DNA of 43,626 nt from Candidatus Aenigmatarchaeota archaeon (GTDB lineage: Archaea; Aenigmatarchaeota; Aenigmatarchaeia; QMZP01; QMZT01). A model generated the notes under the pieces. It was not told the DNA's origin. It searched no databases and saw only the letters and a program-made list of their open reading frames with translations. Position numbers and translations under genes: made by a program. Below are positions 8,175 through 43,626 of this stretch, piece by piece; the first letter of the stretch is position 1, and each line of letters opens with the position of its first letter. The stretch covers positions 9,482-53,107 of the forward strand of contig WVZE01000004.1 in the NCBI GenBank assembly GCA_011772645.1, given 5' to 3'.

Positions 8175-8175
8175 A

Positions 8176-21404: not shown

Positions 21405-22454
21405 GTGCTTAGCGTGATGCAGATATTCAAGATAATTTTCGGGGTAATACTTTCAGCCTTTATACTGACGATACTTTTGAGATTCTCTCTGTCCTACGAA
21501 GAGATAGGGGAATCAAGCAGGGAAGTTGAAATTTTGATGGGGTTAAAGAAGACAATAGAGGATGTGTACACAACCGGAATATCAACGGATTTCGATCTGG
21601 GTTCCGAGGACCTGGTCAATTTCTATTCGCCTCCAAACCTTGTGACATCCGTTACGGACGTGAATCTCGATCCCGTCCCTACACTTTTCGTTCCCGGGGA
21701 AAGAATCTCGATACACAGGGGCGAATACGACCTGGGCTGGTGGAAGTTCTACTTTGTTCACGCCCTGCCTGAAATGAGGATAATTTTCGTACCGCTGGGC
21801 ACGTCTGAAACCGTCTGGAAGATCGCAGAGAACATAACGAAATACCTCCCTTCCACGGAGAACACAGACGCGAAAGTAAGGTTCGGGGTCGGCTGCAACG
21901 AGACAGGCGAGACTCAGACGTATCTTTTCCTCAACTGGGAAAGGGACTACTTCATCAGGACAGTGCTGACGTATTTGTTCGTGGAAGGTTACGAGTTCGT
22001 TCAGTGCAAGCCCATCGAGGGTTACAGGATTATAACGATCTCCGAAACCCCGGTGGATGCGGACTTCCAGGTAGTCCCGATTGACGATGATATGGGTTAC
22101 GTTTACGTGAGAGACATCCAGGAAGGTTCAAAGACCTATCTCTACAAGAACCCCCTGGACATTGTCTCCATTCTACTCGGAGGGAGCAAACTTTACGATT
22201 ACGAGAACGAGAGGTTCCTTAAGGAGTTGTCCATAGCGAGCTCGCTCGCTTCCAGGGAATCGAGTCTTCTCAGGATAAAGGCAAGAAACCCCGACTGCAA
22301 CATAATCTATTCAAGGTTCACACAGGTTCTTGGCTCGCTTAAAAGCGAAATCGAGGAGGGGAATTACAGGAACGAGGATGACATGAAAGAACTCAACAAA
22401 AGGATCAGGGAATCCTCCGGAATTTATCAGGAACTGGAGGAGATGGGATGCTGA
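21405..22454 (+). CDS. Hypothetical N-terminally anchored protein
   Basis: 349 aa, GTG start (alternatives at 21414/21417); MQIFKIIFGVILSAFILTILLRF anchor. Confidence 0.65.
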   Translation: MLSVMQIFKIIFGVILSAFILTILLRFSLSYEEIGESSREVEILMGLKKTIEDVYTTGISTDFDLGSEDLVNFYSPPNLVTSVTDVNLDPVPTLFVPGERISIHRGEYDLGWWKFYFVHALPEMRIIFVPLGTSETVWKIAENITKYLPSTENTDAKVRFGVGCNETGETQTYLFLNWERDYFIRTVLTYLFVEGYEFVQCKPIEGYRIITISETPVDADFQVVPIDDDMGYVYVRDIQEGSKTYLYKNPLDIVSILLGGSKLYDYENERFLKELSIASSLASRESSLLRIKARNPDCNIIYSRFTQVLGSLKSEIEEGNYRNEDDMKELNKRIRESSGIYQELEEMGC

Positions 22455-22921
22455 GGAAAGGGCAGATGCATTTAATGGAGTACGTGCTGTTGGCGTTCTT
22501 CATACTGATGGTGATATTTCTGATAATATTTTTCCTCATGGGATGGAACATAGGAACAACTTCATCAAGACAGCATGCATTACAACAGCAGAGGGCCACC
22601 TTCCTTTTGAAAACGTTTTCCAATTCCCCCTACCTGAATAAAGAGGGCTTCAAGGAAGGTGGGATGCTCGAGGATTCGAAGTTAACTGTTCTGGAATGCA
22701 GCGATCTTGAGGAACTGGTAGGAAGGGGAATTTTTGCGGAGGTCAAGATTATAGATTCCATAACCGAATGCGAGCAGGAAAACTACCCCAGGTGCGGGGT
22801 CTGGAAATTCTGCAGCCCCGGAAACAAACAATTCACGGCGTACGACACGCCCGTGAATGTCTACAGGACCCTAACTAGGGACGTTGAGATAGGCATATTG
22901 ACGGTGGGTTTTTATGAATAA
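22448..22921 (+). CDS. Pilin-like membrane-anchored protein
   Basis: MLRKGQMHLMEYVLLAFFILMVIFLIIFFLMGW resembles the KGQxxxEY class III motif; overlaps the previous gene by 7 bp. Confidence 0.7.
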   Translation: MLRKGQMHLMEYVLLAFFILMVIFLIIFFLMGWNIGTTSSRQHALQQQRATFLLKTFSNSPYLNKEGFKEGGMLEDSKLTVLECSDLEELVGRGIFAEVKIIDSITECEQENYPRCGVWKFCSPGNKQFTAYDTPVNVYRTLTRDVEIGILTVGFYE

Positions 22922-23423
22922 TCGAAAAGCTCAGGCCAGTCTGGTGATGATAGTCCTGATAATAATAATCTTTATAGGCGTTGGCCTGTTCCTCCTGATA
23001 TCCTCCCTGACAACAGAGGGAACCGAATACTACAACCTGTACACACACGACCTCCTGGTCTCTGTGATGAGGGTGAAAACAGGCTATAAGAATCCGTGCG
23101 AGACCGTTTCGGACACGCTTTACTGCGCGATGACGAGGGTGGAGAGGCAATGCAAATATTCGATGGACGAAACGATCAAAAAGGACTGCAGGGAGGTCGC
23201 GGACGAGGTAACGCCTGAAGTGATAAGGAAGGTATTGACAACTAAACCGAGCCTGGATTACTACATGATCATCCAGCCGGAGGATCCCGAACACCTAGGA
23301 GGGGAGATCATAACCTACGGGAACCCGGACGTCCAGAACAGGGGAAAAACCTGGACAGCGAACGAACGCGTGCTCCGCTACCAGACGAATCTCCAGATCC
23401 AGCTCATCCTGACGAGCATTTAA
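22914..23423 (+). CDS. Pilin-like membrane-anchored protein
   Basis: MNNRKAQASLVMIVLIIIIFIGVGLFLL; overlaps the previous gene by 8 bp. Confidence 0.68.
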   Translation: MNNRKAQASLVMIVLIIIIFIGVGLFLLISSLTTEGTEYYNLYTHDLLVSVMRVKTGYKNPCETVSDTLYCAMTRVERQCKYSMDETIKKDCREVADEVTPEVIRKVLTTKPSLDYYMIIQPEDPEHLGGEIITYGNPDVQNRGKTWTANERVLRYQTNLQIQLILTSI

Positions 23424-26978: not shown

Positions 26979-28748
26979 CTATTCCACGGTCACGCTTTTC
27001 GCGAGGTTTCTCGGCTGATCTATGTCGCAGCCCCTTAAAACCCCCAGGTGATACGCAAGCAGCTGAACCGGTATGATATTCACTATTGGAGAAGCCAGAC
27101 CGACGTCCGGGGTTTTCAGCCAGTAATCGAAGACCTCGTTCCTTTTCGGTCCCACGCCTATTATGAACCCCCCTCTCGCCCTGACCTCCATTGCGTTTCC
27201 TATTATGTTGTTCATCCCGTCGTTCGCAGTCAGAACAATGCAGGGAGAGCCTTTCTCTATCAGGGCGATGGGTCCGTGTTTAAGCTCGCCGCCGGCGAAG
27301 CCCTGGGCGTGTATGTAGCTGACCTCCATGATCTTTATCGCACCTTCCAACGCCATCGGATAATTCAATGCCTTTCCGATTATGTAGACATTTTTCTCCC
27401 TGCAGATTTTCTTCGCGAGTTTTTTGATGTACTCTTCATATCTAGGATTAAGCATGTCGTTGATCTTGGAGGCGGTCTCCAGGAGAAGTTTCTTACCCTC
27501 ATTAAGTTTACCTGCGCACGCATACGCAAGGAGATAGAGGATCGCGAGCTGGGCTGTGGTCGCCTTTGTGGAAGCGACTGCCTTTTCCGGTCCTGCCTTT
27601 ATGAGGAAGGTTATATCTGAAACCCTGTCGAGTGTCGAGCCCTTGACGTTAACAAGCGATATGACTTTCACTCCTTTCTCCTTCGCCGCTTTGACGGCCT
27701 CCAGAACATCCGCTGTCTCCCCGCTCTGCGAGACCGTTATGAGAAGGGTTTTCTTGGTAAGGAAATTTCTGTAGTTCGGGAATTCGGATGAAACCACGTA
27801 ATTCACGTGTTTGTTCGCAACGTTCGAAAACACGTATTCCCCTGTCTGGCATACCTTACCCGCGGTCCCGCATCCCGTCAGGAACACGCCGAACGCCTTG
27901 TTTATCTCGTTAGCGACCCTCCTGATCTCTCTTTCATCCTGGTTTATCGCTTTCATTATGGTCTCCTTCTGCTCCAGTATCTCCTTTATCATGTAGTGTT
28001 CGTGCTCGCCTTTCTCTGCCTGTTTCGCATCCCAGTCTATCGTTATCACCCTCTTCTCGATCCCTTTTCCGTCAGTCAGGTTTCTGAATCTCGGCTCTCC
28101 CTCCACAACAACCATCTCACCATCATCCAGGTACATCACCTTCCTGGTGTGATTCAAAAAAGCAGGGACATCTGATGCGATAAAATATTCGTCTCTACCG
28201 ACCCCGAGAATTAGAGGAGAACCTGTTCTCGCTGCAATAAGACCGGGGAAACCCCTTTCAGCGACTATTATCGCCGACCTTCCCTTCAGGGAGTTCATAC
28301 TCTTTCGAACTGCTTCCTCAAGGTCAAGACCCGAGCGAAGGTTATCCTCTATCAAATGCGCTATAACTTCCGTATCGGTTTCGCTCCGAAACCTGTGCCC
28401 CTTCCTTTTCAATCGTTTTTTCAGTTCGGAAAAATTCTCTATTATCCCGTTGTGTATCACCGCGATCCTGTCTTTGCAATCTGTCTGGGGATGCGAATTA
28501 CGTTTGGAGACTTTCCCGTGTGTCGCCCACCTTGTATGTCCGAACCCTATATTTCCGGGAAGATTCTTCAAGTCCATTTTCCCGTCCACATCATCTATCT
28601 TCCCCATATCCTTCTTTATCCAGACTTTTCCCCCATCCAGCGTTGCGATCCCACAGCTGTCATACCCCCTGTATTCCAGCCTCTTAAGAGAATCAACCAG
28701 TAAGGGAGCCACCCTTCGCTTGCCTACATATCCTGCTATCCCGCACAT
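26979..28748 (-). CDS. glmS: Glutamine-fructose-6-phosphate aminotransferase (isomerizing)
   Basis: MCGIAGYVGKRRVAPLLVDSLKRLEYRGYDSCGIA, HTRWATHG, two SIS domains, C-terminal DQPRNLAKSVTVE. Confidence 0.97.
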   Translation of the reverse strand: MCGIAGYVGKRRVAPLLVDSLKRLEYRGYDSCGIATLDGGKVWIKKDMGKIDDVDGKMDLKNLPGNIGFGHTRWATHGKVSKRNSHPQTDCKDRIAVIHNGIIENFSELKKRLKRKGHRFRSETDTEVIAHLIEDNLRSGLDLEEAVRKSMNSLKGRSAIIVAERGFPGLIAARTGSPLILGVGRDEYFIASDVPAFLNHTRKVMYLDDGEMVVVEGEPRFRNLTDGKGIEKRVITIDWDAKQAEKGEHEHYMIKEILEQKETIMKAINQDEREIRRVANEINKAFGVFLTGCGTAGKVCQTGEYVFSNVANKHVNYVVSSEFPNYRNFLTKKTLLITVSQSGETADVLEAVKAAKEKGVKVISLVNVKGSTLDRVSDITFLIKAGPEKAVASTKATTAQLAILYLLAYACAGKLNEGKKLLLETASKINDMLNPRYEEYIKKLAKKICREKNVYIIGKALNYPMALEGAIKIMEVSYIHAQGFAGGELKHGPIALIEKGSPCIVLTANDGMNNIIGNAMEVRARGGFIIGVGPKRNEVFDYWLKTPDVGLASPIVNIIPVQLLAYHLGVLRGCDIDQPRNLAKSVTVE

Positions 28749-28825: not shown

Positions 28826-30070
28826 TCACTCAAATACCAGGGCGCTCACGCCCTTCTTGTAGGTCTGGACGTTCCTCGAGACCTCGTCCAGCCCGTCCTT
28901 GAGGACCTCGAACCTCCGTTCGTAATTGTCCACAAGATCGTTCACAAAACCCCTTATATGTTCCTTGAAGTTCTTGATGTCCTCTATGTTTTCCACGAGC
29001 GCCTTGTTCAGTCGTTCCTCATTCCCCCTCAGGTGGTTCAGGATATTGTCGTTCGCTTCCTTCAGTTTCGTTATAACAGCTTCTTCGAAGTATCGGTGTT
29101 TGCCTTCGAGGGAGTTAACCTTTTCGTTCACCTCTTTCTTCAGACCATCCGTGGTTTTCATGAATTCGAGTTTTGTCTGCTCAATATCTTCCACGCTGGT
29201 TTTGATCTTCTCCTCGATTGCCTGCAGACCTTTGTTTATCTCCTTCGAAACCCCTCCCCTTATCTCAACCTCCATGTCATTCTTTAGCTTGTCCATGCTC
29301 TCTGCCTGGGAAGAGAGGATCTTCAGCTTCTCGTCAGCCTGGGACTTGACTATCAGGAATTCCTTCACCATCCCATCGAATTCCTTCTTCTTGTCCCTCT
29401 CCTTGCGTTCGAATTCCTTCTTTAATTTATCAAGCATGTCCGTAAAATTCACTCTAAAGCTTTCTATTTTTTCAAAAAACTTTTTACTTTCATTCTCCGT
29501 GTTCTGTATCCTGTGATCAAGATCGGAGTCCTTGTCCCTGAGCTTTTCCAGACTCCCTTCCAGGTCCTTGAAGTCGGAAATTATCCTGTTGAATTCTTTG
29601 AACAAACTCCCCTTCTCCATCCTTATCTGGCCCATCTCGATAACGAGCTTTTTCTCAAGATCATCAACGCTTTTCTTCTGTTCTTCAAAATTCCTTTGGA
29701 ACTCCTCTATACGTCCTTCCACGTCCTCCTCTATCTCCTCGAATTTCCTCTCTCCGGAGTCCATCCTCTTTTCCACAGAATCAACCCTGTTCAAAAGCTT
29801 TTCCCTGAAAAGTGATTGCTTGTTTTTCAGATCCGTGAGTGATTTGTTCAGGACCTTAACAGAGTCCCTCAATTCAGAAAATATCTCATCATCCTTCTCC
29901 CCTCTCTTGCTCAACTCCCTTGTTAATGTTTTTAATTCCGTTATCTTGTTCGAATTCCTTTCAACCAGCTTTCTCAATTCTTCCAGGAGATACCTGTATT
30001 TACTTTTCCACTCCTCCTTCTCTTCCTTGATGTCCTTTATCCTCTCGCCAAGTTTTTCGAATTTGTCCAT
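28826..30070 (-). CDS. Long coiled-coil protein (414 aa)
   Basis: Nearly continuous heptad-like Lys/Glu/Leu sequence with no TM; start overlaps the previous stop in TAATG. Confidence 0.8.
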   Translation of the reverse strand: MDKFEKLGERIKDIKEEKEEWKSKYRYLLEELRKLVERNSNKITELKTLTRELSKRGEKDDEIFSELRDSVKVLNKSLTDLKNKQSLFREKLLNRVDSVEKRMDSGERKFEEIEEDVEGRIEEFQRNFEEQKKSVDDLEKKLVIEMGQIRMEKGSLFKEFNRIISDFKDLEGSLEKLRDKDSDLDHRIQNTENESKKFFEKIESFRVNFTDMLDKLKKEFERKERDKKKEFDGMVKEFLIVKSQADEKLKILSSQAESMDKLKNDMEVEIRGGVSKEINKGLQAIEEKIKTSVEDIEQTKLEFMKTTDGLKKEVNEKVNSLEGKHRYFEEAVITKLKEANDNILNHLRGNEERLNKALVENIEDIKNFKEHIRGFVNDLVDNYERRFEVLKDGLDEVSRNVQTYKKGVSALVFE

Positions 30071-32430
30071 TAACCCTCGGCCTCCTCTATCAGTTTGTCG
30101 AGCTCCTTAGAACTTTCCTTCTTCAGGGACCTTATGGATTTCGAAAGGGAATCTATCTTTTTTCCGAGGCTGCTGATGGAATCCCTGAATTCCCTATCAA
30201 TCTCCTTGACCCTGTTCTCATTAACAAAGCTTCTCTCTCCAATGACTTTTAAAAGATTCTCCGTTTTGGACAGGGTATCCCCAAGCCTCTTTAAAGAGAC
30301 TTCGGATCCGGCGACCCTGTTTTCGAAACTATTCCTGAACTCCTCCTTGAATTTGTCGAGCTGATCAAACTGTTCGGTTAGCTTTTTCATCCGCTCCTCA
30401 ATCTGCGCCCTGATACCGAAAAATTCCCTTACACTCCTGTTAATTTCATCCTTTTTAACGCTCTCCGCCCCCTTCATTTCCTTCCTGAGAGAACTCAGCG
30501 TGCCTTCGAGGTTGTTCTTGATCGTGTTTAGGTTGGTCTCCACTCCCTTGATCCTGCCCTCCAGATCCTCCTCCACCTCGCTTATGTCCTTCTCCATCCC
30601 CTTCTCCTTCCTCTCGCTGAGCCTGTCAACGTCCTCCCTGAGCGAGTCCAGGCTCTTCTGAAAACCATCCCTCAGTTCGACCATGGAGGCATTAAGGACC
30701 CCTTCCAGGTCACTGATCCTTTTGTCTATTATTTTCGAATCGCCCTTGGAAGCCTTGACGGAGAATACGATTTCACTCAGATCCCTCAGATTCGAATCTA
30801 CATCATCAACCCTTTTCTTGATCTCCTCCTCCACTTCCGATATGCTTTTTCCCAGTTTCTCCTCCTTCCTCTCGCTGAGCTTATCAACATCCTTCCTTAT
30901 GCCTGACAAAGAATCATGAAATTCCTTTCTTAACACAGAGATGTTCTTCTCTGTCTCTCTCATCCTCTCCCCCACTTCCTTCCCGCCAACCTTAACCGAT
31001 TCCATCCTCGAAATCCTTTCACCAAGCTTTCCGAATCCTTCACCAAGTTCCTTAACAGCGACGTTGAAACCCTTCTCCATCTCCTTGATCCTCCCCTTCA
31101 GCTCGCTCTCCACCGCTGTTATGTCCTTCTCCATCCCCTTATCCTTCCTCTCGCTGAGCCTGTCAACGTCCTCCCTGAGCGAGTCCAGGCTCTTCTGAAA
31201 ACCATCCCTCAAATCATTAACACTACTGTCAAGTTTGCTCAACTTCTCATCAGCCATTTTCGAATCAACTTTCACGCCCTCAAGCTTTAGAACCATACTT
31301 CCTATTTCCTTTAAGTTCGAATCCACATCACCAATCTTTTTCTTGACCTCTTTCTCCACCCTGCCTATATCCTTCTCCACCCCTTTCTCCTTCCTCTCGC
31401 TGAGCCTGTCAACGTCCTCCCTCAGGGAGTCAAGGTTGTCCCAGAAACCTTCCTTCATCTTCGCAATCCCTTCATTGAAACTGTCCTTCATGCGGTTGAT
31501 GCTCTTCTCCAGGTTACTTATTTTATCATCAACGACCTTTGAATCGCCTTTGGCAGCCTTAACGTTCAGAAGCATATCGCTGAGTTCATTTATCTTCCCA
31601 TCCATCCTCTTTTCAACGTCCGTTACCCCTTTCTCCAAACTCCTCATCCTCTCCCCCACTTCCTTCCCGCCAACCTTAACCGATTCCATCCTCGAAATCC
31701 TCTCGCCAAGCTTTCCGAATCCTTCACCAAGTTCCTTAACAGCGACGTTGAAACCCTTCTCCATCTCCTTAATCCTCCCCTTCAGCTCGCTCTCCACCGC
31801 TGTTATGTCCTTCTCCATCCCCTTCTCCTTCCTCTCGCTGAGCCTGTCAACATCCTCCCTGAGCGAGTCCAGGCTCTTCTTAAAATCCTCCCTCATCCCG
31901 GCAACCGAGCTGTTAAGACCCGCCTTCAGATCGTTAACCGTTTCCCCCAGTTCAGCGATTTTCGAATCAAATACTTTAGAATCAACCTTAACGCCCTCGA
32001 TCCTGAGAGCGGAATCCCCGATCCTCCCGGTTTGCTGTGAGAGGTCTTTCAAAACACTGTCAAATTCAGACTGTTGTTTTTCGAGATTGAAAACCCCTGT
32101 TTTCAGGGAATTAAGAACATCCTCGAAGCCCTCGATCTTCTCGAGACCATCGCTTACGGACTTTTTGTAATCTGAAATTTTCTTGTAGAGGGAATCGAAT
32201 TTATCCAGACTCTTCTTTACAGGCCTTACCTCTGTGTTTACAAATTCAAGTATCCTCTTGCCTGCGGCGGAGTAAGCGACCGATGCTTCTTTGAGCCTGT
32301 CCGCGAGATACCTGTTCTTTTCCATCAGGAACGTTCTGTCGCCCTTAAGCTTTTTTATGGTCTCCTTTCTGGCCTCGTTTTCTTCCTTAAGCTTCCTCAG
32401 CCTGTCCCCCAGCTCTTTCAGCTCTTTCAT
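30070..32430 (-). CDS. Long repetitive coiled-coil protein (786 aa)
   Basis: Five copies of a segment like LDSLREDVDRLSERKEKGMEKDI; starts 1 bp after the previous stop. Confidence 0.82.
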   Translation of the reverse strand: MKELKELGDRLRKLKEENEARKETIKKLKGDRTFLMEKNRYLADRLKEASVAYSAAGKRILEFVNTEVRPVKKSLDKFDSLYKKISDYKKSVSDGLEKIEGFEDVLNSLKTGVFNLEKQQSEFDSVLKDLSQQTGRIGDSALRIEGVKVDSKVFDSKIAELGETVNDLKAGLNSSVAGMREDFKKSLDSLREDVDRLSERKEKGMEKDITAVESELKGRIKEMEKGFNVAVKELGEGFGKLGERISRMESVKVGGKEVGERMRSLEKGVTDVEKRMDGKINELSDMLLNVKAAKGDSKVVDDKISNLEKSINRMKDSFNEGIAKMKEGFWDNLDSLREDVDRLSERKEKGVEKDIGRVEKEVKKKIGDVDSNLKEIGSMVLKLEGVKVDSKMADEKLSKLDSSVNDLRDGFQKSLDSLREDVDRLSERKDKGMEKDITAVESELKGRIKEMEKGFNVAVKELGEGFGKLGERISRMESVKVGGKEVGERMRETEKNISVLRKEFHDSLSGIRKDVDKLSERKEEKLGKSISEVEEEIKKRVDDVDSNLRDLSEIVFSVKASKGDSKIIDKRISDLEGVLNASMVELRDGFQKSLDSLREDVDRLSERKEKGMEKDISEVEEDLEGRIKGVETNLNTIKNNLEGTLSSLRKEMKGAESVKKDEINRSVREFFGIRAQIEERMKKLTEQFDQLDKFKEEFRNSFENRVAGSEVSLKRLGDTLSKTENLLKVIGERSFVNENRVKEIDREFRDSISSLGKKIDSLSKSIRSLKKESSKELDKLIEEAEG
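30961..31200. repeat. Intragenic repeat, copy 1 (partner 31645-31884)
   Basis: 240 bp with about six mismatches by eye to 31645-31884; offset 684 bp, in frame. Confidence 0.88.
31645..31884. repeat. Intragenic repeat, copy 2 (partner 30961-31200)
   Basis: See 30961-31200. Confidence 0.88.
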
Positions 32431-34965
32431 TCAACCTCTCAACTCGCCAAGGAGGGAATTTATCCTCTCCTTCTGTTTTTTTGACATTTCCTCAAGCTTT
32501 TTCCTGTCCATAAGGCTCTGCTCAACAACGTTCTCAAACTGCGCCCTTATGTTCACAAGCTCCTTTTCAAGTTTAGAAATTCTCTTTTCCATCCTTTCCT
32601 GGAAGCCCCCGATTTCTTTCATTTCCTTCCACTTCTCATCAAGGTCCTCGATGGATTTTTTGGCAGAGGAGATCCTCTCCCCCAGATTCTTGGCCTTCTC
32701 GTTCATCCTTTCGAACTTTTCCACGAACGATTTCCTGGAGCCTTCCAGATATTCGACACCCTTCTGAAGCTGTGAGATATCCTTTACGTAGGACTCGAGC
32801 ATATCCAGTCTCTTCAGGAAATCCTTATCGTTCGACCTCATCTCTTTTATTTCCTCCTTCATCCTGCCTTGAGCCTCCTTAGACCCCTGTATGTCATCGT
32901 CAATCTCACCAAGATTGTTTTCGAGAATAGCCAAAGTCGGTTTAACCACGTTCTCTAATTGAGATTTTTCATCCCTGAGGCTGTCAATACCCTCTTCGAA
33001 GAGATTTTTGTTGTCCTCTACCCTTTTATCTATGGAAAGCAATCGGTCACTAATCTTGCTGATCTCAACTGAGAAATCATCCATGACGTTCTCAATCTTT
33101 TCAACCCTTCCCAGGACCTTCTTTTGCGCTGACAACCTTTCATCCAGGGTTTTCAGCTTACCGTCAAGTTCGCTGATCCTTGTATCAAGCAAACCCTTCA
33201 GATCATCAATCTCCTTGGTTTTTCCGTCCAAGATTTCTATGTTTTCTCCGAGCTTTTCGAGGGAACCCAGGGTCTTGAACAATTCCTTGTTCTCGATTTT
33301 CATCTCCTTTATCCTGTCACTTAGGTTTGACTGGGATTCATTGAACTTCTCAAGCCTCCCGTCAAACTTCTCGAGATCTCCTTTGAACATTTCCAACGTG
33401 GGGTTAACCACATCCCTGAACTGCGAGAGCTCCGATTTAAGGCCCTCTGTCCTCCCGTCAACCATCTCGAGGATTTTGGAAAATTTCCCCTCGATTTCTG
33501 AGAGCGCAGGTTTTGAGATGTCCGTGAATTTTTTCTCTATGCTCTTCTCCACGTTCAAACCCAGCTTTTCCTGGAAGCCTTTAACCCCTTCCAGAACCTT
33601 TCCGAAATCTTTAACCTGTTCCTTTAACGCATCTATGGTGGGGGTTATCGTGTTTTCAAACTTGTAAAACCTCGAGGCAATGATATCCATCTCGTCTTTG
33701 ACGGAAACAAGCTCCTTCGAAGTCTTATCCTTTACCTCGGAAAGTTTGGATTCGGCCATCTCTGTGAACAGTTTACTCACGAGCTCCTTGACAAATTCAG
33801 AGTAATCCTCCCTGAAGTTCTTTATGCTTTCGGAAAGTTCCTCTGACCTTCCCTTCAGCTTGGTTTCCAGGTCAGATATTTTCTCCAGAAGTTTCGCTTC
33901 CCTTTCCTTCAGATCCCCTTTTGCCTTCTCCCTGTCCGTTTGCAGTTCAACCACGTAGTCGCCCAGTTTATATAGGTTTTTCATTTCACTCTTGAAATAG
34001 CTCATTTCGCTGTAAAGCCTTTTTATCCTCCCGTTCAGCTTCCCGGCCTCGTCTTTTAAACCCTTTACATCGCTAAGAACGGGCGATATTTCTTTCGACA
34101 TGCCCTTGCTTATCTCCTGTGGTATGATCTGGCTTGAAAGTTCCTCTGTTGAGAATACGAGTTTTTTCAGCTTTTCTATGTTTTCCGGTCCAAGCTTTTC
34201 GATCAGTGCCTGAACTTTGTCCTCAAGGCCCGGAAGCTTCTCAAGACGCTTAAGTTGTTCCTTAAACCTGGAGAACCTCGTTTCATTCTCGTCCCTCATT
34301 TCGGTGAACGTTCTCTCCAGATCCTTCAAGGATTTTTTTACCTCATTCAGATCACTCTGAAGTTCAACAGTCCCTCCGAAGGCAGCGAGGCCTTTGGAAA
34401 CCTCCTCCCCTCCCCTGGTTGGAACTTCAGGCGTGGTGAGCTTGTCAGAAAGTTTTTTAATACTGTCCTCGATGGCGGATATCTTGCTCGTGGTTTCACT
34501 CTGTATCTTATCAACCAGTTTCCTGACCTTCCCCTCTTCAGGTTTTTCGGTTTTCCCGATCTTAGTTCCAATCGCCGTCATGCTGTCCTTTATTTCCTTG
34601 AGCTGTGCCTGAAACTGGTCGGTCATCTTTTTTTCCAGATCCTTGAGCTTGGGTTCCACGGGCTCCGGCGGCGGCGTGGCTGGGGCGGGTGGCTTAGCTT
34701 CCTCGGCCTTGGAGGAAACCTTCTCTATTATTTCGGCCAAGCCTTTGCTCTTCTCCTCCAGATCCTTTCTCTCTTTCTCAAGCGATTTTGTTTTGCTCTT
34801 TTCCTCTTCAAGTTGCTTTCTGAGGGCATCGGCTTCTGATCCCCCGGTATCCTGCTTCGTTTCTTCGGGTTTCCTTTTCGCTTCCAGCGGATCACCCAAC
34901 TTTTTCAGGCCTTCAAGCCCTTCAGCAACCCCCTTTTTCTTCTTTTGAACCTCTTCATTAACCAT
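32431..34965 (-). CDS. Long coiled-coil protein (~844 aa)
   Basis: Extended charged heptad-like sequence with Pro-rich break APATPPPEPVEPK; start set at MVNEEVQ because GGGGTGGTT precedes it (ORF track starts at 34986). Confidence 0.8.
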   Translation of the reverse strand: MVNEEVQKKKKGVAEGLEGLKKLGDPLEAKRKPEETKQDTGGSEADALRKQLEEEKSKTKSLEKERKDLEEKSKGLAEIIEKVSSKAEEAKPPAPATPPPEPVEPKLKDLEKKMTDQFQAQLKEIKDSMTAIGTKIGKTEKPEEGKVRKLVDKIQSETTSKISAIEDSIKKLSDKLTTPEVPTRGGEEVSKGLAAFGGTVELQSDLNEVKKSLKDLERTFTEMRDENETRFSRFKEQLKRLEKLPGLEDKVQALIEKLGPENIEKLKKLVFSTEELSSQIIPQEISKGMSKEISPVLSDVKGLKDEAGKLNGRIKRLYSEMSYFKSEMKNLYKLGDYVVELQTDREKAKGDLKEREAKLLEKISDLETKLKGRSEELSESIKNFREDYSEFVKELVSKLFTEMAESKLSEVKDKTSKELVSVKDEMDIIASRFYKFENTITPTIDALKEQVKDFGKVLEGVKGFQEKLGLNVEKSIEKKFTDISKPALSEIEGKFSKILEMVDGRTEGLKSELSQFRDVVNPTLEMFKGDLEKFDGRLEKFNESQSNLSDRIKEMKIENKELFKTLGSLEKLGENIEILDGKTKEIDDLKGLLDTRISELDGKLKTLDERLSAQKKVLGRVEKIENVMDDFSVEISKISDRLLSIDKRVEDNKNLFEEGIDSLRDEKSQLENVVKPTLAILENNLGEIDDDIQGSKEAQGRMKEEIKEMRSNDKDFLKRLDMLESYVKDISQLQKGVEYLEGSRKSFVEKFERMNEKAKNLGERISSAKKSIEDLDEKWKEMKEIGGFQERMEKRISKLEKELVNIRAQFENVVEQSLMDRKKLEEMSKKQKERINSLLGELRG

Positions 34966-34995
34966 ACAACCACCCCGACCCTTCATTCGAAATAT

Positions 34996-35265
34996 TTATT
35001 CACTTGATAAGGCTCTGGCAAGCCTTTTGACGTTCCTTTCCTGTTCCTTCAGTCTACCCTCGATTTCCGAAATTCTCGAATCGATTTCGTTTAACCTCGA
35101 GTTAAGTTTCAAGTCCTGTTCCGCGTTCCCCCCCGCTTTGATTTCTGGTATAAACATACTATTCGATTTGGTTCCGGTATATTTAATTTTATAAAGTTGG
35201 TATAATAAAAAGCAAATTATAACGACCAGCAGCAGGATGATCACCAAAAACGCCGACTCCAACAT
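34996..35265 (-). CDS. Small membrane-anchored coiled-coil protein
   Basis: 89 aa; one N-terminal TM (SAFLVIILLLVVIICFLLYQLY), C-terminal coiled coil LNEIDSRISEIEGRLKEQERNVKRLARAL. Confidence 0.72.
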   Translation of the reverse strand: MLESAFLVIILLLVVIICFLLYQLYKIKYTGTKSNSMFIPEIKAGGNAEQDLKLNSRLNEIDSRISEIEGRLKEQERNVKRLARALSSE

Positions 35266-35298
35266 AAGTATTATTTTGATCTTGTTATTGAAATATGT

Positions 35299-36075
35299 TT
35301 ATTCTCTGGGTTTGATCCCGAACAATCTCAGGAAACCTGAAAGAAGGTTCGGCGGCCTGTATTCCTTGCCTATCAATTTTGCAGCAAGCTTCTTCATTTC
35401 GATGCTTGCAGGAGAATTCGGAGAGAAGAGGTAAACCGGAACTTTAAGGGCGAGACTCCTCAAAACATTCTTGTCCATGGGTATCAGGGATATCACAGGG
35501 ATTTCTGCTATCTGCTCCACCTCTTTTCTCCCCAGCTCATACCTTTCCTTCCCCACCATGTTCAGAACGACACCCAGCGGTTTTATTCCCATATCGTTTA
35601 CCACCTGATGGCATTTCATTATATCCATGGTGGATGGGACGAAAGGCGTGTTTATGAAGATAACCTCATCCGCCGCCTGAAGGGTCGCCATTGCCTCCCT
35701 CCCCAGGCCTGGAGCGGAGTCCAGGAGAACGATATCTGTCTTTCCGAACAGACTCTTCAGAGAATGCTTTAGCTTTGCTATGTCCGTCCCCTTCAGATCC
35801 CCCAAGGACAGGGAAGCGGGTATCACGCGCAAACCGCTTATGTGGTATTCGTACATCGCATCCTCTATCTTCGCTTCGTTTTTCAGGACCTGGTTGAGCG
35901 TGACAGGACAATAATACATCCCCAGATAAAGCGCTAGATGAGAAGTCGTGATATTGCAGTCAACTATTATCACATCCTTCTTGAACTCGGAGGCGAGAAT
36001 CGTCCCCAGGTTTGCAACTACCGTTGTCTTTCCCACGCCTCCTTTACCCGAAATCACCCCGATTATCCTCGTCAT
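35299..36075 (-). CDS. MinD/ParA-family ATPase
   Basis: MTRIIGVISGKGGVGKTTVVANLGTILA deviant Walker A, DIVLLDSAPGLGREAMATLQAADEVIFINTP; C-terminal NLLSGFLRLFGIKPRE. Confidence 0.93.
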   Translation of the reverse strand: MTRIIGVISGKGGVGKTTVVANLGTILASEFKKDVIIVDCNITTSHLALYLGMYYCPVTLNQVLKNEAKIEDAMYEYHISGLRVIPASLSLGDLKGTDIAKLKHSLKSLFGKTDIVLLDSAPGLGREAMATLQAADEVIFINTPFVPSTMDIMKCHQVVNDMGIKPLGVVLNMVGKERYELGRKEVEQIAEIPVISLIPMDKNVLRSLALKVPVYLFSPNSPASIEMKKLAAKLIGKEYRPPNLLSGFLRLFGIKPRE

Positions 36076-36120
36076 TCGCTCTCACACTTTATTTTTATTG
36101 TTCGTCATTAAATAACCTTC

Positions 36121-36780
36121 CTACCATTTCAGAGTGCATAAAATTTTCGACAGTTCGTTTTCGTTCCTGGCCAATACCGGAAAATCGTTGATTTTGCTGA
36201 GCTGCGAATTCAGCTGATGAGTATAATTCAAAAGATCCCTTTCACCCGACAACGAAATGAGGGTTGATATTATCCTCGGAACAATATCAGCCTTGTATTT
36301 CTTGCAAAAGACTATCATGTTTGAAAACAGGACATAGAGAAAAACATCAGTGAATATGTTCGATCCGTATCTGCCGACCATTTCCTTGTCACCCCTGTAG
36401 AGAACCTTCAGGTTCTTGGGGGAGAACAGAAGGGGGTGGTATTTCTCAATGAATTTCTGAATAATGTTCCAATTGCCTACAATCAACGAATTAGGGGTCC
36501 AGGATTCCTCCGGAATTTTCCTGTGTTTCCCCCTCATGTAACCAGGTATCCATCCGAACAGGGGTTTCAGCCTCTTGCCCTCCTTTACTATGTAGTTTTC
36601 CTTTATCATTTGCCTGAACAGGGGTTTGCCGATTCCTGATTCTATGTGATAGAGATAGTTGGTCTTCACGCCCCATTCCGTCTGTATTCTAAACAGCGAT
36701 GTTCCCTTCTGATCGCTCGCGGCGTTTAGCCAGATAAGCCAGAAATTCTTGTACTCCGTAAGCTTCTTTTTCTTTATCAT
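36121..36780 (-). CDS. Hypothetical protein, possible winged-helix domain
   Basis: 219 aa; N-terminal LFRIQTEWGVKTNYLYHIESGIGKPLFRQMIKENYIVKEGKRLKPLFG looks like a wHTH with basic wing; rest unknown. Confidence 0.5.
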   Translation of the reverse strand: MIKKKKLTEYKNFWLIWLNAASDQKGTSLFRIQTEWGVKTNYLYHIESGIGKPLFRQMIKENYIVKEGKRLKPLFGWIPGYMRGKHRKIPEESWTPNSLIVGNWNIIQKFIEKYHPLLFSPKNLKVLYRGDKEMVGRYGSNIFTDVFLYVLFSNMIVFCKKYKADIVPRIISTLISLSGERDLLNYTHQLNSQLSKINDFPVLARNENELSKILCTLKW

Positions 36781-36913
36781 AATTTTTATAAATATACTAG
36801 TTTATCGTCCCGATACAGGTCGTTTTCTCCCTAAAGGAGCCTGAACCGTTTATTATTTCGATGTTTTATTATTAGAATTTTTTATATAAAAATAATAGTA
36901 TGAACATACAAAT

Positions 36914-39900
36914 TTATTTGAGCTCTGACATTTTCTTCTCAAGCGATGCAAGCTTCTCCTCGTTCCTCTTCTTCAGGTTTCCATACGCCTTCTCTGATAT
37001 CAGGCCATCCTTGAACTCCCTTTCCAGAAGGTTCAGAACCCTCCTCACGCTTGCCACTTCCCTTGCCAGTGATTCCTTCTCCTCGATTTTCTCAACAAGA
37101 ACCGTCCTCGGCTTCGCCCTTGGCAACTGAAGCTTGAATATGCTCTCCACCCTTCCCTTTATCTTCCTCACGAAGAACAGGAGTATGATTATAACCAAGA
37201 CCAAAATTACCAGAACAACAATTAACCATGGCGGTATAAAGGTTACCAGGGGCTGGATGAACGGGGCTTTCGAAAGCTGGTATTTCGCTCTCTCCAGAAG
37301 GTTCCATCCAACGTAGACCGCGCTGAGCGCGTCGTCATACATCTTCTTGTTGAGATAGTCTTTCGCATCATCTATCCTTTCCTTTATCTGGTCTATCAGA
37401 GGCGTGATTTCACTCACGTCCTTTCCCACGCCTTTCGCCTCCTCAACATCCATCTCAAAATCCCTGAGCGCTTTCTCAAGCCTCTCTATCTCCCATCTTA
37501 CGAGATCCTCCCTGGAGGTGAAAACCACTATCTTGAATATCTTTTCATCGCTTGTTTTGTTGTTGCGTGCAATCCCTTCCGCGATCAGCGTTCCGAAGTA
37601 TTCTTTCGGTTCCGCTATACTGGGCATGCTCAGTTTCACGTTAAAGATTGAGGTGTTTCCTCTTTGAAGATATCCAACAACCTTTGGCGTGATATCTATC
37701 CAAGGTGTTGGGATACCGACTATTCTCAACGTCACATTCTGGAGCCCCACACCTCCTGTGTTCTCAACCTCGACTGTTAGATATTTGGTGGCGCCGGTCT
37801 CTATTCCCACCTCCTGAAGGTATTTCGTGATCTCTATCTTGGGAGCCCTGACCTCAGGGGCTGCAGGCGCTGCAGGCGCTCCTGGAGCACCGGGAGGACC
37901 GGGAGGAGTTGGCGGACCCTCCTCTACGACATTGAAACTTGCGTTTGCTGAAGCCGTGGGCTGTGAAGGGTCGTACGTGACCAAAGCGTTCACATAGTAT
38001 GTTCCCAAGGGCTGGGTCGGTGTTATGTAAAGATTCTTCACCAGGGTCCTGTTGGAGAAGGCAGGAACGTTTACGTAATCATACTGGTAACTCCATGTCT
38101 GGTTTTGGCCGGACACCCAGTATTCAACCTTAACGTCCGTGTGAGAAATCTCCCCCCTGTTCTCCAGGTATATCTCAAAATCTATGTAGTCATTCTGATA
38201 CGTCTGACCTTCCAACAGGTTTATCGCCACGTCGTAAGGACCTCCTGCAGCTATCCTGAACACCTCCATATCCCAGCCGGGTTTACCCCCGAGCATCACC
38301 TCTAATACAGCAACGTACGTCCCTGTCTGTGTCGTGTTCTCATCCAGTATTTCCGTTAAATAATTATAGAAACCCGGAGAGGTCTCTGTGAAATCGCTTT
38401 TACTTAAATTTCCCCAGGGTCGGGTAACCAGCTGTAAACCATATATGGAGCCCGTGTAATACACTTTCAGGTCTATCGAGTCGGGTTCTGAAGGCACACC
38501 GCTCCCAAGAACAGAAACGCTTATAGGCATGGGTTGTGAAACGAGAGAGGGATCAGGGATCGCAACTCTCGCAGTAACCTCGCTATCCTCCCTCACCTCG
38601 AACTGGTAGGATGTCATGACCTGAACGGTTTTGTTCACACTGGCTTCATAATACGAGGAATTGGTCGTTATGTTATAGCTGCCGAAAACGGCATCATCGA
38701 TGATTTCGAATTCCGGCGGGATATCTATTCTCCCGTTGGAGGATGTGGTATGAACGGTTGAAGGATCGGGAGGGACAACAAGGTTCTGTAGGGGGTCTCT
38801 TATCGTGAATGTAGCGTTCACGCTACCCAAGGGATTACCCGTGAAATCTTCCACGCTGTAGTTTATCGCTCCCCTTTCCCCCTGGTAGTAAATACCGCTT
38901 TCCCTGAAGGTTCCAAGGTTCACGATAAGTTTAGTGTAGATAGTAAAGCTTGAGGCGTTCGTTCCGTTCTTACCCTGTATGTCGAAGGATATCACGCTCA
39001 CGTTGTAAATGCCTTTGAGGGAGGTGTCCCCCCAGAGTCCGTGATCTGCATCGTAAGGGAAGTATATGTCGTATTTATATGTGTCAGCCAGTTGCCCGAA
39101 GAAGTCCATCTGCGCCGTGTAGCTCGTCCCGTTGGGTCCTGTTATGTTTATCGAGGCGTTTTGGATAGGGTTCAAAGCGCTCAGGTCGGTTACGTTCGCG
39201 AATATCCGGATGCTCCCGTTCTGCCCTGTCTGGTTGGGGTATACCCCAACAACCACCTTGGGCTTGACGTAAGGATTGAGAACTATCTGGAGAATAAGGA
39301 AGTCAGGAGACGAACCAGCCTGAGTGGCGTTTATCGTGTAGTTCGTGAGGTGGAACTGTATGGGAGCGCCGGTAGCGTTGTAGAGAACCGAGAACCTATG
39401 GGATTCGAGCTTGTTTATCGAAAAGCTAGTCTCATTGGTCCACGTGTAGTTCACAGGGGACGATTCGGAAGAATACGGCGTTATGTTGAAATCAATTTGA
39501 ACGTTGCCGGTGTTGTTTATGGTTACATTCCCTGGACACACGAAACCGTATTCAGGGGTCATGGGTCTTTCGCAGTAGGGCGGATCCGGCGTGATGATCC
39601 ACGTCCTGCTCGTGGGGACGTTTACCTGAATGCTCAGATTCTTCCACCCCGCGTTTAAGGTTGTTATGTTCAGGGTCCCGTTATACAAACCCGGGGCGTA
39701 ACCTGCCGGGACGGAGACATTGACCAGAACGGTATGAAGTTCTCCGGCTGACATGTTCGTAACGTTTGGCGGGTTGAACTTGAGCGGGACGAAGGTGAAA
39801 TTGAAGTCACCCAATCCCGTCACCTCCAGACTCACGTTAATCACCACATCGTTACCGGAGGAATTCAGGGTGAGATTATCGAAGTTAACGTTCGTTCCGT

Positions 39901-42895
39901 GCGTGACATCCCCTGTCAGATTATCCTCTGCTATTTCGAAAATGACGTTTGATTCAACGGTTATGTTAAGAAGAGTGAAATTCACGCTTTTCCCCACCTC
40001 CGGGTTCTCCCACTCAACGCTTACGTTCACAGAATAGTTCCCGGGAAGCGTTCCGTTAAGAACGGTTATCAGGAAATATCTTACGCATGAATCCCCTGCC
40101 TGAACGTTCCCGCAGGGTTCGTTCGAAACGTTCGAGGTTATGTTCCCTGGAAGACCAAGGGTTATGTTCGTATCGAAAGCGACTCCTGTCTCTGTGTTGG
40201 TTGTATTTACGAACAAGGGGAAGCTCTGATTTACATACCAGGTTATGTTTTCCGCGGTGAAGTTGGTGGGATCTATGAAAATGCTCATGTTGGTTCCGGA
40301 GACCGACACCTCCAGGGTTATGTTCTTCCACCCATCGTTCCCGCTGGTTACGTTCAACGTCCCGTTGTAAGTCCCGGGGATCACATCAGGGGAAACGGTG
40401 AGATTTATCTGTACCCCCTTCAATTCCCCCGGAACCATGAAGGAAACGTTCGGCGGGATTAATTCGAAGGTGAAGTTCCCATCAAATCCCGAGATGTTGA
40501 AGGTGATGTTCTGAAGATAGGAGTTACCGCTCGAATTTATCGTGAAGTTCCCTATGTTCTTTTCCTTCTCCTTTGCCACTATTCCCGATATCTTGTTGTT
40601 AGGCAACGGGACTATGTCCAGTATGGAATTCGGAAGAACCGTTACGTTTACAGAGGTTGTATTTATGTCATAAGAGCTATCGGAATTTCTCCATTCAACA
40701 CTCACGTTGAAGGTGTAATTGCCCGCGGGCGTTCCCTCAAAAACGATTATTGAGAAATACCTTTCGCATGATTTGCCTATGAGTATATCGCCACAGCTTT
40801 CGGAGGTTACGTTTGCGGTTATGTTATCCGGCAAACCCAAAGTGATGTTCGCATAGTAGGCAGAACCGTTTTCCAGGTTTGTTGCGTTCACTGCAATCGG
40901 AAGGCTCTGGTCGGCATACCAGGTTATGTTATCATACGTTAGGTTGGAAGGTATGGAAACTACGCTTAGGTTCGTGGTAAAACCCTCAACCGTGAATTCA
41001 TCCCAATCTAAACCGCTGTTGTTGTATTTCGTGGCGCTGCAGTTAAGAACGTATGTTTTGTATTCGGACGGGGCGAAAAACTGGATGAAATACGTCCCGT
41101 TGTTGTAGTCCGTTATGTTGTTCTGATCGATTTCAGAGGAATCGTACGTGCAGTTTATCGTCGCATTAGGTATCCATGCATCCCTCCTGTAATTCTTCAC
41201 CTCCAGTGTAACGTTAATAAGTCTGTCGGGGAAACCCGTCTTGTTTTTAACGGACGTTATGTTGATAAAATAATCATCGGTAACGTTGAACGTGAAAAAG
41301 CTTTTATTCAAAAGATACCACGTGTCGTTGAACACCCAAAACGTAACATTCCACAGATCCACCGAGGCGTTTTCAGGTAGGAAATAACTGTTGTTGTAAA
41401 CATCATCCCCGTCACCGTCGTAGAGCGTGATGTTGATATCATCGTTCGTGCCGGCAGTTCCCATATCCAGGGTGGCGTTGACCCTTTTCGAAAGGTCGTA
41501 GGGATCGACCGTTACGTTAGCCCTGAATATAACGGTTTCATTCTTATTGAACACGCTTACGTTAACCTCCGAAGCATTATACGTTCTTCCCACGACAATA
41601 ACCTGCCAGGCTTCCAGGTTATCCCTTGTCAGGACAACGTTCTTGAGCAGACCATATTTCAGGTTTATTATCTGGTTCTCGTCACCGGCTGTCCCGTTGA
41701 ACTGCATGAAAGAAACCTGACTTATTAACCCGCCGGCAGAGATGTTTGTTGTATTCAAAGTTATACCTATCCTTCCGGTGTTGTCAACATCATTGTATGC
41801 GTAGAAGTTCGATGTTCCTGTTTCGTTCAGGTTTATTATCCCTGCTGACCAGCTTCCCTGCTCCTCTGCTCCCCATGCCCAGGAGCCAGGATCCGTTGTG
41901 TTCGAGTAGTTGGGAAAATCATAAGGAGGATTGCTGTAAGGGTTGTTGAAGGTTGTGTTTACGTTTATTCCGGGGACAGAGGCATACGTTGAGTTTCTTG
42001 AGATATCATAGCCTGCATCGTTCTCGTATACCTGTTCGATCTTCACAAACACGTTGTTCGAATAGAACACGTATCTTTTCGTAAGTAAACCCTCTCCTGT
42101 CTTGTTTTCAGTCAAATTCCACAGGGTCTCCTCACCAATCTGTTCGACAATTATCCTTATCGGGCCTACATGCTTGAAGGTCGCGTTGTTCCTGAAATCA
42201 AACCCGAAGTCGTTCGTTCCGTTTGAATATTTTGTGTATTCAGCCGTCCTGCCGTCCGGATCGGGCTTTATAATCTCGTTTGACGTCCCCAAGTCTATCA
42301 CGTGGTAGATACCCGAGGTGTTCTCCACTCTCTCGGTATCAACAAACCATGCCATTATGGAGTTGTTCACGTTAAACTCCTCGATGCTTCCCGCATAGCT
42401 GTATATCAGATCGCTCGAATAGTTCGGTTTTTCCTTGTTCCCGTTTTCAGTTATATCGAAGTAAACGTAGTAATACCTCACCGTGTTTTTCGGGGTTGTC
42501 CCGTTCAGCAGGAAGGAAAGAACACCAACAGCGTTGGTGGTTGGGTTATAACCATCGTCCTTGTCGAACTGACTTTTAACTTCCCAGAGAATCGAGCCTG
42601 TGGAGTTGTATTCGATCACTCGGGTGGAATTCTCATCGAACGTTCCCGAAATGTTCAGTTCCTTCAGGATGTTGGTGAAGTTCACCTCGTACTCAACTGG
42701 CCAGTCTATACGTGAAGTTTTGTTGTTCGGGCTGTAGAATTCGCTCGTATTTATGTCAAGCCTGAACCTGTGTCGCCACCTTTCGCTCCACCATTCGTCA
42801 TCATAGTTCTGGGACGAGATGTTCAAGATACCAAGGCTTACAAAGGTCAGGACTATGCAAACCAAAACGAACTTTTTATAACGAATTTTGTTCAC
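36914..42895 (-). CDS. Giant surface protein with repeated NEW3/CARDB-like beta domains, C-terminal TM and cytoplasmic tail
   Basis: 1993 aa; signal-like N-terminus, very many N-x-S/T sequons, two tandem ~230-aa repeats, Pro/Ala linker, TM PWLIVVLVILVLVIIILLFFV, charged tail. Confidence 0.87.
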   Translation of the reverse strand: MNKIRYKKFVLVCIVLTFVSLGILNISSQNYDDEWWSERWRHRFRLDINTSEFYSPNNKTSRIDWPVEYEVNFTNILKELNISGTFDENSTRVIEYNSTGSILWEVKSQFDKDDGYNPTTNAVGVLSFLLNGTTPKNTVRYYYVYFDITENGNKEKPNYSSDLIYSYAGSIEEFNVNNSIMAWFVDTERVENTSGIYHVIDLGTSNEIIKPDPDGRTAEYTKYSNGTNDFGFDFRNNATFKHVGPIRIIVEQIGEETLWNLTENKTGEGLLTKRYVFYSNNVFVKIEQVYENDAGYDISRNSTYASVPGINVNTTFNNPYSNPPYDFPNYSNTTDPGSWAWGAEEQGSWSAGIINLNETGTSNFYAYNDVDNTGRIGITLNTTNISAGGLISQVSFMQFNGTAGDENQIINLKYGLLKNVVLTRDNLEAWQVIVVGRTYNASEVNVSVFNKNETVIFRANVTVDPYDLSKRVNATLDMGTAGTNDDINITLYDGDGDDVYNNSYFLPENASVDLWNVTFWVFNDTWYLLNKSFFTFNVTDDYFINITSVKNKTGFPDRLINVTLEVKNYRRDAWIPNATINCTYDSSEIDQNNITDYNNGTYFIQFFAPSEYKTYVLNCSATKYNNSGLDWDEFTVEGFTTNLSVVSIPSNLTYDNITWYADQSLPIAVNATNLENGSAYYANITLGLPDNITANVTSESCGDILIGKSCERYFSIIVFEGTPAGNYTFNVSVEWRNSDSSYDINTTSVNVTVLPNSILDIVPLPNNKISGIVAKEKEKNIGNFTINSSGNSYLQNITFNISGFDGNFTFELIPPNVSFMVPGELKGVQINLTVSPDVIPGTYNGTLNVTSGNDGWKNITLEVSVSGTNMSIFIDPTNFTAENITWYVNQSFPLFVNTTNTETGVAFDTNITLGLPGNITSNVSNEPCGNVQAGDSCVRYFLITVLNGTLPGNYSVNVSVEWENPEVGKSVNFTLLNITVESNVIFEIAEDNLTGDVTHGTNVNFDNLTLNSSGNDVVINVSLEVTGLGDFNFTFVPLKFNPPNVTNMSAGELHTVLVNVSVPAGYAPGLYNGTLNITTLNAGWKNLSIQVNVPTSRTWIITPDPPYCERPMTPEYGFVCPGNVTINNTGNVQIDFNITPYSSESSPVNYTWTNETSFSINKLESHRFSVLYNATGAPIQFHLTNYTINATQAGSSPDFLILQIVLNPYVKPKVVVGVYPNQTGQNGSIRIFANVTDLSALNPIQNASINITGPNGTSYTAQMDFFGQLADTYKYDIYFPYDADHGLWGDTSLKGIYNVSVISFDIQGKNGTNASSFTIYTKLIVNLGTFRESGIYYQGERGAINYSVEDFTGNPLGSVNATFTIRDPLQNLVVPPDPSTVHTTSSNGRIDIPPEFEIIDDAVFGSYNITTNSSYYEASVNKTVQVMTSYQFEVREDSEVTARVAIPDPSLVSQPMPISVSVLGSGVPSEPDSIDLKVYYTGSIYGLQLVTRPWGNLSKSDFTETSPGFYNYLTEILDENTTQTGTYVAVLEVMLGGKPGWDMEVFRIAAGGPYDVAINLLEGQTYQNDYIDFEIYLENRGEISHTDVKVEYWVSGQNQTWSYQYDYVNVPAFSNRTLVKNLYITPTQPLGTYYVNALVTYDPSQPTASANASFNVVEEGPPTPPGPPGAPGAPAAPAAPEVRAPKIEITKYLQEVGIETGATKYLTVEVENTGGVGLQNVTLRIVGIPTPWIDITPKVVGYLQRGNTSIFNVKLSMPSIAEPKEYFGTLIAEGIARNNKTSDEKIFKIVVFTSREDLVRWEIERLEKALRDFEMDVEEAKGVGKDVSEITPLIDQIKERIDDAKDYLNKKMYDDALSAVYVGWNLLERAKYQLSKAPFIQPLVTFIPPWLIVVLVILVLVIIILLFFVRKIKGRVESIFKLQLPRAKPRTVLVEKIEEKESLAREVASVRRVLNLLEREFKDGLISEKAYGNLKKRNEEKLASLEKKMSELK

Positions 42896-43626
42896 CCTTT
42901 ACCAGACAAAATCATTTTTTTCGTCCGCTCGTACGCTTCCTTGCTTATGAATCCCTTTTTGTAGGTATCTTCAAGATCCTTTAACAACACTTCCTTCCTG
43001 TTCACGGGTTTCGCCGGCTTCGCGGTAGTTCCCATTTTCGGCTTTTCTGCCGCCTTTGGCGTTACAGGAGTTTCTGCCTCCGGAGCCAGCCCGCTTTTCT
43101 TCATTTTTTCCGCCCCTTTGATCTTCACCTCGATTTCTTTCAGTCTTTCCACGTTGGCCTTCTTTGTTTTTTCAAATTCATCCTTTGAAATCCTCTTGTT
43201 CTTGTATTCATCCTCAAGAGTTTTTATCAGCATGTTTATCTCCTCTTTTTGTATCTGCAGATCATCTATCGCGTCCTTCTTGGGTTCCGCCACTTCCTCC
43301 CCTTCCCCGGAAGGCTTTAGGCTCTGGCTGAAAGCCTCAAGGTCGTCCCTTGTCACGAACCTCGAAATTTTCGCGTTCATATCGTCAACGCTTCTCATGA
43401 GCTCATTCACGAGATCATCCATACGGTCCTGCTTTGTTCTGTAGAGCAGGAATTCCTCCATCCTTTCGCTCAGTTCAACGTATATCGATTGAACCCTCTC
43501 AGCCGATTTTTCGATATTCCCCTTAAGGGCTTCCATTGCCTGAAGATTTTCCGTCACGGTTTGACTGACCTTTATGACATTCTCCAGACTTCCCAGGTTG
43601 ACCAGGACCTTTCTCATCCTGCCCAT
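42892..43626 (-). CDS. Coiled-coil protein with two SHOCT-like motifs (may extend beyond right edge)
   Basis: LEDEYKNKRISKDEFEKTKK and LEDTYKKGFISKEAYERTKK; stop overlaps the next start by ATGA. Confidence 0.75.
   Translation of the reverse strand: MGRMRKVLVNLGSLENVIKVSQTVTENLQAMEALKGNIEKSAERVQSIYVELSERMEEFLLYRTKQDRMDDLVNELMRSVDDMNAKISRFVTRDDLEAFSQSLKPSGEGEEVAEPKKDAIDDLQIQKEEINMLIKTLEDEYKNKRISKDEFEKTKKANVERLKEIEVKIKGAEKMKKSGLAPEAETPVTPKAAEKPKMGTTAKPAKPVNRKEVLLKDLEDTYKKGFISKEAYERTKKMILSGKG

Follow-up and report, generated by a model that had tools for sequence, protein, structure and literature searches.

A SPEARE-type surface apparatus and a MinD/coiled-coil module may be joined in a conserved gene cluster of Aenigmatarchaeota

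INTRODUCTION

How host-dependent nano-archaea hold their hosts and exchange material with them is an open question, for which the giant SPEARE proteins, studied as lone proteins, are leading candidates. We analysed a stretch of 43,626 nucleotides from a Candidatus Aenigmatarchaeota archaeon (contig WVZE01000004.1, positions 9482 to 53107; hereafter the window), in which eight genes on the minus strand (window 28826-43626) encode, in order of transcription, a coiled-coil protein with SHOCT-like motifs (SHOCT-cc), a large surface protein (GiantB), a small conserved protein (Reg219), a MinD-type ATPase, a small membrane-anchored protein (TM89) and three long coiled coils (CC851, CC786 and CC414). 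Do these genes form one apparatus, and of what kind? We consider the chances to be even that these genes are the downstream portion of a DPANN surface apparatus of SPEARE type, together with a MinD/coiled-coil positioning module. The source cells are tiny, probably symbiotic archaea, and the cluster may build and place the structure by which such cells touch their hosts.

RESULTS

Conservation of the cluster within Aenigmatarchaeota

Reading of the open reading frames (ORFs) confirmed that all named genes lie on the minus strand in the order claimed by an earlier, sequence-only reading of this DNA (Table 1). The junctions measure -4 bp between SHOCT-cc and GiantB, 133 bp between GiantB and Reg219, 45 bp between Reg219 and MinD, 33 bp between MinD and TM89, 9 bp between TM89 and CC851, 0 bp between CC851 and CC786, -1 bp between CC786 and CC414, and 77 bp between CC414 and a glmS-like gene. 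The window ends with the contig, in an assembly of 775 kb that is 78% complete; the first gene is SHOCT-like, as claimed, but its 244 amino acids (aa) are only a C-terminal fragment, which aligns from the middle of the 484-692-aa orthologues onward. The coiled coil described as 844 aa is the same ORF, read as 851 aa from an ATG 7 codons earlier.

Among the relatives compared, all of them fragmentary metagenome-assembled genomes, the order SHOCT-cc, GiantB, Reg219, MinD, then TM89 and coiled coils is kept in six (G004, G007, G012, G014, G016 and G018), except that TM89 was not called in G004 and other genes lie between the coiled coils in G014; the contig-limited G006 and G022 agree as far as their contigs reach. 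Four more genomes (G015, G019, G034 and G036) have Reg219-MinD inverted, mostly still adjoining the giant or the coiled coils, or both of them, and loci L046-L049 show that this pair is invertible relative to either. The gap at 36780-36914, which the earlier reading took as a possible border between transcription units, coincides with this module boundary; the second promoter is a candidate. Reg219 was found in 24 of 156 Aenigmatarchaeota genomes (5 weakly) and is confined to part of the phylum, and GiantB in 53 at 1e-12, with strong matches in 40. GiantB is present in 17/19 Reg-positive and 23/137 other genomes, a statistic that ignores phylogeny, and it adjoins a MinD in further families (L164, L168-L171). 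In family f12 (G047), MinD and three coiled coils lie ~20 kb from the HerA-type giant described below, not adjacent to it. Reading of all ORFs located Reg219 genes in L261/L262 and SHOCT-cc in L245.

The gene linkage is strong, with inverted pieces mostly remaining neighbours. On the other hand, the cluster reads as two separable modules, because HerA-giants outside the phylum usually lack an adjacent MinD and the f12 module lies apart from its giant. The claim of one system thus stands for linkage over evolution but not for an indivisible unit, and the independent occurrence of parts, which the earlier reading had named as contrary evidence, is partly observed.

The HerA-ATPase giant upstream

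Directly upstream of SHOCT-cc, relatives encode GiantA, a surface protein far larger than GiantB and the central component of the apparatus (SPEARE-type); the sequence-only reading, which recognised no named system, had lacked it. GiantA open frames reach 4388 aa (to the contig edge, G004), 4753 aa (G014), 5531 aa (G059) and ~11,260 aa (G047), and are laid out as a giant ectodomain, one transmembrane (TM) segment ~400 aa before the end, and a cytoplasmic HerA-type ATPase. The ATPase scores above the Pfam cut-offs for DUF87/HerA_C (DUF87 35.6 bits, cut-off 23.2) and matches a PDB HerA profile (E 1.6e-11); its AlphaFold2 model (predicted local distance difference test, pLDDT, 84) has Sulfolobus HerA (4d2i) as best fold match (E 1.1e-13). 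The longest of these frames (G047:C2; L265 317-19900, L266 3-14195) ends in the HerA ATPase and belongs to a genome of ~0.8 Mb, and another open frame, in G249:C8, measures 12,145 aa; both exceed the largest archaeal SPEARE proteins in the parts of the literature covered here.

A motif shared by GiantB and SHOCT-cc

GiantB carries an N-terminal hydrophobic segment (9-27, signal or anchor), NEW3-type repeats, 119 N-glycosylation sequons in its ectodomain, a single TM segment (1891-1909) and a cytoplasmic tail of ~84 aa with one SHOCT-like motif, which we defined by our own hidden Markov model (HMM) built from GiantB tails. A profile of the last 50 tail residues only picks up the SHOCT-cc proteins, with ~3 motif copies each in most (two of three are visible in the window fragment), and a single MinD-like protein (452 aa, G290) that has the motif twice (E 3.7e-14); the profile's next-best match outside these families, at E 6e-5, lies beside a GiantB (L177). 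The only match to Pfam SHOCT (PF09851), in the L245 MinD fusion, has 15.7 bits, below the gathering score of 27, so that membership in that family was rejected. Sequence features support surface display of GiantA and GiantB, a cytoplasmic location of the HerA ATPase and of the coiled coils, one of which is TM-anchored, and the presence of a MinD ATPase. The GiantB of G034 is split into an N-terminal part of 414 aa (L214 10440-11684) with SHOCT-cc and HerA at ~61 kb and a C-terminal part of 1616 aa (L047 4804-9654) with MinD at ~520 kb of the same chromosome, owing either to an intragenic inversion or to misassembly.

HerA-giant loci outside the phylum

Because the way in which loci were collected can bias adjacency counts within Aenigmatarchaeota, we relied on 20 loci picked by HerA alone (18 outside the phylum plus two second copies in G004). 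One of them lacks downstream DNA, which leaves 19 (17 outside and 2 in G004). SHOCT-cc lies downstream in 18/19, either immediately or with a second HerA or a small membrane protein in between; one of the 18 is a fragment of 74 aa where its contig stops, and the 18 include genomes in which the length of the giant fits the published Nanohaloarchaeota proteins. A SHOCT-cc HMM made without nanohaloarchaea-like members recovers those members at E 1.5e-45 to 1e-35, and matched no unrelated coiled coils among ~1490 ORFs. A GiantB-like gene is adjacent in 9/19 loci (convergent in L247, L248 and L250). The operon of G290, from another lineage, runs HerA-giant, SHOCT-cc, GiantB-like, MinD-SHOCT, MinD (L245), and the fusion of a MinD-like ATPase to SHOCT-like motifs is the best single evidence that MinD functionally belongs with the giants.

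In one family outside the phylum, the HerA-giants have open frames of 8891 and 9433 aa and a second HerA gene behind them. These lengths are close to the 8880 and 9409 aa published for SPEARE proteins of Nanohaloarchaeota, which also have a second HerA/VirB4-like gene downstream (PMC10266531, PMC6642349), and we infer that this family is Nanohaloarchaeota. Two HerA genes occur only in loci such as L249 and L252-L254; Aenigmatarchaeota operons mostly have SHOCT-cc directly downstream.

MinD, TM89, the long coiled coils and Reg219

The window MinD scores 233.3 bits against the NCBIfam archaeal MinD model TIGR01969 (cut-off 201.75), with 1hyq, 1ion and 1g3q as best PDB matches, and has orthologues at 55-76% identity in its family, its order and part of its class. 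A single origin of all module-linked MinD was rejected, since this label would have to change 8 times over the tree, although the clade that holds the window protein is uniform. Neither MinC nor MinE was recognised in the neighbourhood, although no search was aimed at either. The TM89 family HMM recovers the window protein and orthologues in 7 relatives and nothing else significant.

The claimed TM character was recovered by simple scripts in both GiantB and TM89. Similar scripts bore out the claimed coiled-coil character of CC414, CC786 and CC851, whose hydrophobic periodicity lies at 3.45-3.65 residues with a power of 28-50 (at most 6 at other periods) and whose coiled-coil coverage falls from 0.76-1.00 to 0.28-0.44 after shuffling of 28-residue blocks. 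An HMM of CC851 orthologues gives E 1e-63 to 1e-242 within the order, and CC414 is matched with the relatives' third coiled coil as its orthologue more by position than by sequence.

Reg219 is a novel conserved protein, with zero sequence matches in Pfam, NCBIfam and PDB and named relatives that are nearly all Candidatus Aenigmatarchaeota. Its N-terminal part is predicted to fold as helix-helix-helix-strand-strand, winged-helix-like, and its C-terminal part as helices (AlphaFold2, pLDDT 86.5). A fold search gave no significant match, only weak IclR/PadR ones; Reg219 was therefore rejected as a proven DNA-binding protein, and a role as regulator stays a guess. Distant relatives precede the giant HerA gene of G047 by ~2.3 kb (L258 1770-2531) and a very large open frame of G083 by ~0.6 kb (L264 7774-8526).

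Neighbouring genes

The glmS-like gene is probably outside the system, because it does not adjoin the cluster in relatives (e.g., L039, L040 and L043). By eye, pilin-like signals with TadC-like membrane genes (window 6710-9069) and a run of small pilin-like proteins (20267-23423) are probably parts of type IV pili, and a secreted protein of 1465 aa, rich in cysteine and with a von Willebrand-like segment (1804-6201), appears to be another large surface protein.

Table 1. Features of the cluster (window positions; the last row refers to locus L245)
Feature	Position	Strand	Basis
SHOCT-cc, C-terminal half, cut off by contig end	42892..43626	-	HMM E 1e-72; alignment begins mid-orthologue
GiantB, 1993 aa	36914..42895	-	Pfam NPCBM_assoc 63.8 bits; orthologue identity 36-46%; TM, sequons
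AT-rich gap, 133 bp; candidate promoter of second transcription unit; module boundary	36781..36913	-	Sequence reading
Reg219, 219 aa	36121..36780	-	Conserved protein; AlphaFold2 model
MinD-type ATPase	35299..36075	-	TIGR01969 above cut-off; intact GKGGVGKTT Walker A
TM89, 89 aa	34996..35265	-	N-terminal TM 4-22 and short cytoplasmic coiled coil; family HMM
CC851 (844 aa from second ATG)	32431..34986	-	Heptad control; conserved N-terminal half; orthologue HMM
CC786, long coiled coil, segments visibly repeated	30070..32430	-	ORF reading, heptad control, HMM
CC414, coiled coil, 1-bp overlap with CC786	28826..30070	-	ORF reading, heptad control
glmS-like gene, 77 bp downstream	26979..28748	-	Named from sequence only
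MinD-like ATPase fused to two SHOCT-like motifs (G290)	L245 13886-15244		GiantB-tail profile

DISCUSSION

The full order in relatives (GiantA, SHOCT-cc, GiantB, Reg219, MinD, TM89 and two or three long coiled coils) suggests how such an apparatus could work: (i) GiantA and GiantB, anchored in the membrane, would reach outward and bind the partner cell; (ii) SHOCT-cc would use the shared motif to bind the tail of GiantB and would couple it to the GiantA HerA domain; (iii) the HerA domains would form oligomers that translocate DNA or protein as substrate or power remodelling; (iv) MinD, cycling on the membrane with ATP, would gather or hold the giants at one cell site together with TM89 and the long coiled coils; and (v) Reg219 might control expression or assembly. 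Haloferax MinD2 and MinD4 position surface motility machines (PMC11588486), which makes a positioning role for MinD plausible here; the nanohaloarchaeal giants have been proposed as host-binding secretion devices (PMC10266531), and one of them is expressed in culture (PMC6642349).

Several observations weigh against this reading. GiantA lies outside the window and has zero matches in the same incomplete assembly, whose contig ends there. The shared motif is short (~40 residues), and the hydrophobic-moment shuffle for a C-terminal amphipathic, membrane-targeting helix of MinD was not significant for the window protein (P 0.23; 0.02-0.83 in relatives). MinD also adjoins NEW3-type membrane proteins in pilus-like clusters, so that a neighbour of this type is not unique to the system, and it is adjacent in only 1/19 of the HerA-chosen loci (L245), which makes it an addition rather than part of the core. 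In G020, a 141-aa remnant of the GiantB tail (L041 11399-11824) stands beside an intact Reg219-MinD, the giants being apparently lost or misassembled.

The foremost alternative, which we regard as rather unlikely, is that a giant surface/translocation operon and a MinD-coiled-coil unit for shape or division are independent neighbours, joined only by chromosome position. The AT-rich, promoter-like gap between them, the inversion of Reg219-MinD, the scarcity of MinD at HerA-giant loci outside the phylum and the distance between the modules in G047 all speak for this, but the modules stay together through inversions, several distant families have MinD immediately beside GiantB, nearly all Reg-positive genomes also have GiantB, and MinD is fused to the SHOCT-like motif within the giant operon of G290. 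A second alternative, unlikely as a whole and compatible with the apparatus proposed here, is that it serves mainly DNA import or conjugation in a Ced-like manner, with adhesion secondary. For the HerA part, a DNA role of the Ced kind has to be taken seriously as an alternative: its best NCBIfam match is CedD (E 6e-10), which is required for DNA import (PMC11868833), and its best fold match is a DNA translocase; however, the CedD score of 38 bits is far under the 600-bit cut-off, inspection recognised no CedA-like multi-pass channel beside the giants, and a giant ectodomain is typical of adhesion. The idea that MinD serves type IV pili as a FleN-type regulator, with the giant gene as a bystander, for which the association of FleN/MinD ATPases with archaeal pili, some of whose loci hold S-layer-like proteins (PMC4858521), the pilin-like genes elsewhere in the window and the lower-scoring MinD paralogues in pilus-like clusters of relatives could speak, is improbable and was rejected on gene context, as the nearest pilus-like genes are >11 kb off, ORF reading recognised no pilus ATPase, TadC or pilin genes in the cluster here or in relatives, and the window MinD falls in a supported set of 15 that all share this gene context (98/89).

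If the SPEARE-type apparatus with its MinD/coiled-coil module is real, a giant surface machine would have a MinD system of its own. A wider proposal, which we put forward tentatively and hold to be doubtful, is a DPANN-wide host-contact organelle built of HerA giants, almost always with SHOCT-cc as dedicated adaptor and often with a second giant, which in Aenigmatarchaeota its own MinD and a coiled-coil cytoskeleton would place at one site, with a logic comparable to that of an attachment organelle. Each partner offers a testable handle, and SHOCT-cc could be tested at once in cultured nanohaloarchaea.

Compared with known systems, the GiantA domain shares the ATPase fold and Walker motifs of HerA/CedD/VirB4 translocases; unlike those stand-alone soluble proteins, it sits at the C terminus of a giant surface protein, past a TM segment. 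In the bacterial PomXYZ and HubP/FlhG systems, a ParA/MinD-type cycling ATPase positions cargo with a coiled-coil scaffold, a likeness to this cluster that we offer as an idea only. Closer in family are Haloferax MinD2/MinD4, MinD-family ATPases that affect the position of surface motility machines; the likeness is one of family, not of established orthology, and the sections available (PMC11588486, PMC11621097) describe neither a giant-protein operon nor dedicated coiled-coil neighbours. A search of openly licensed papers found nothing direct on a MinD/coiled-coil/DPANN link or on an Aenigmatarchaeota giant system, and the partner set appears undescribed in the searchable literature.

The nearest known system is SPEARE of Nanohaloarchaeota (Hamm et al. 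2019, PMC6642349; PMC10266531), of which Hamm et al. had noted similar intracellular sequences in Aenigmarchaeota. Its giant ectodomain, near-C-terminal TM segment and homologous HerA/VirB4-like ATPase occur here in the orthologous operons of relatives only. As published, SPEARE has a second VirB4-like gene downstream, which we treat as a variable, not defining, feature, and the passages covered do not describe SHOCT-cc, GiantB, MinD, Reg219 or scaffold partners; the Aenigmatarchaeota operon, in contrast, combines one HerA-giant with all of these. Through this comparison the SPEARE giants would gain a cytoplasmic partner conserved in several lineages, another giant to pair with and, in a single phylum, a module of MinD and scaffold proteins.

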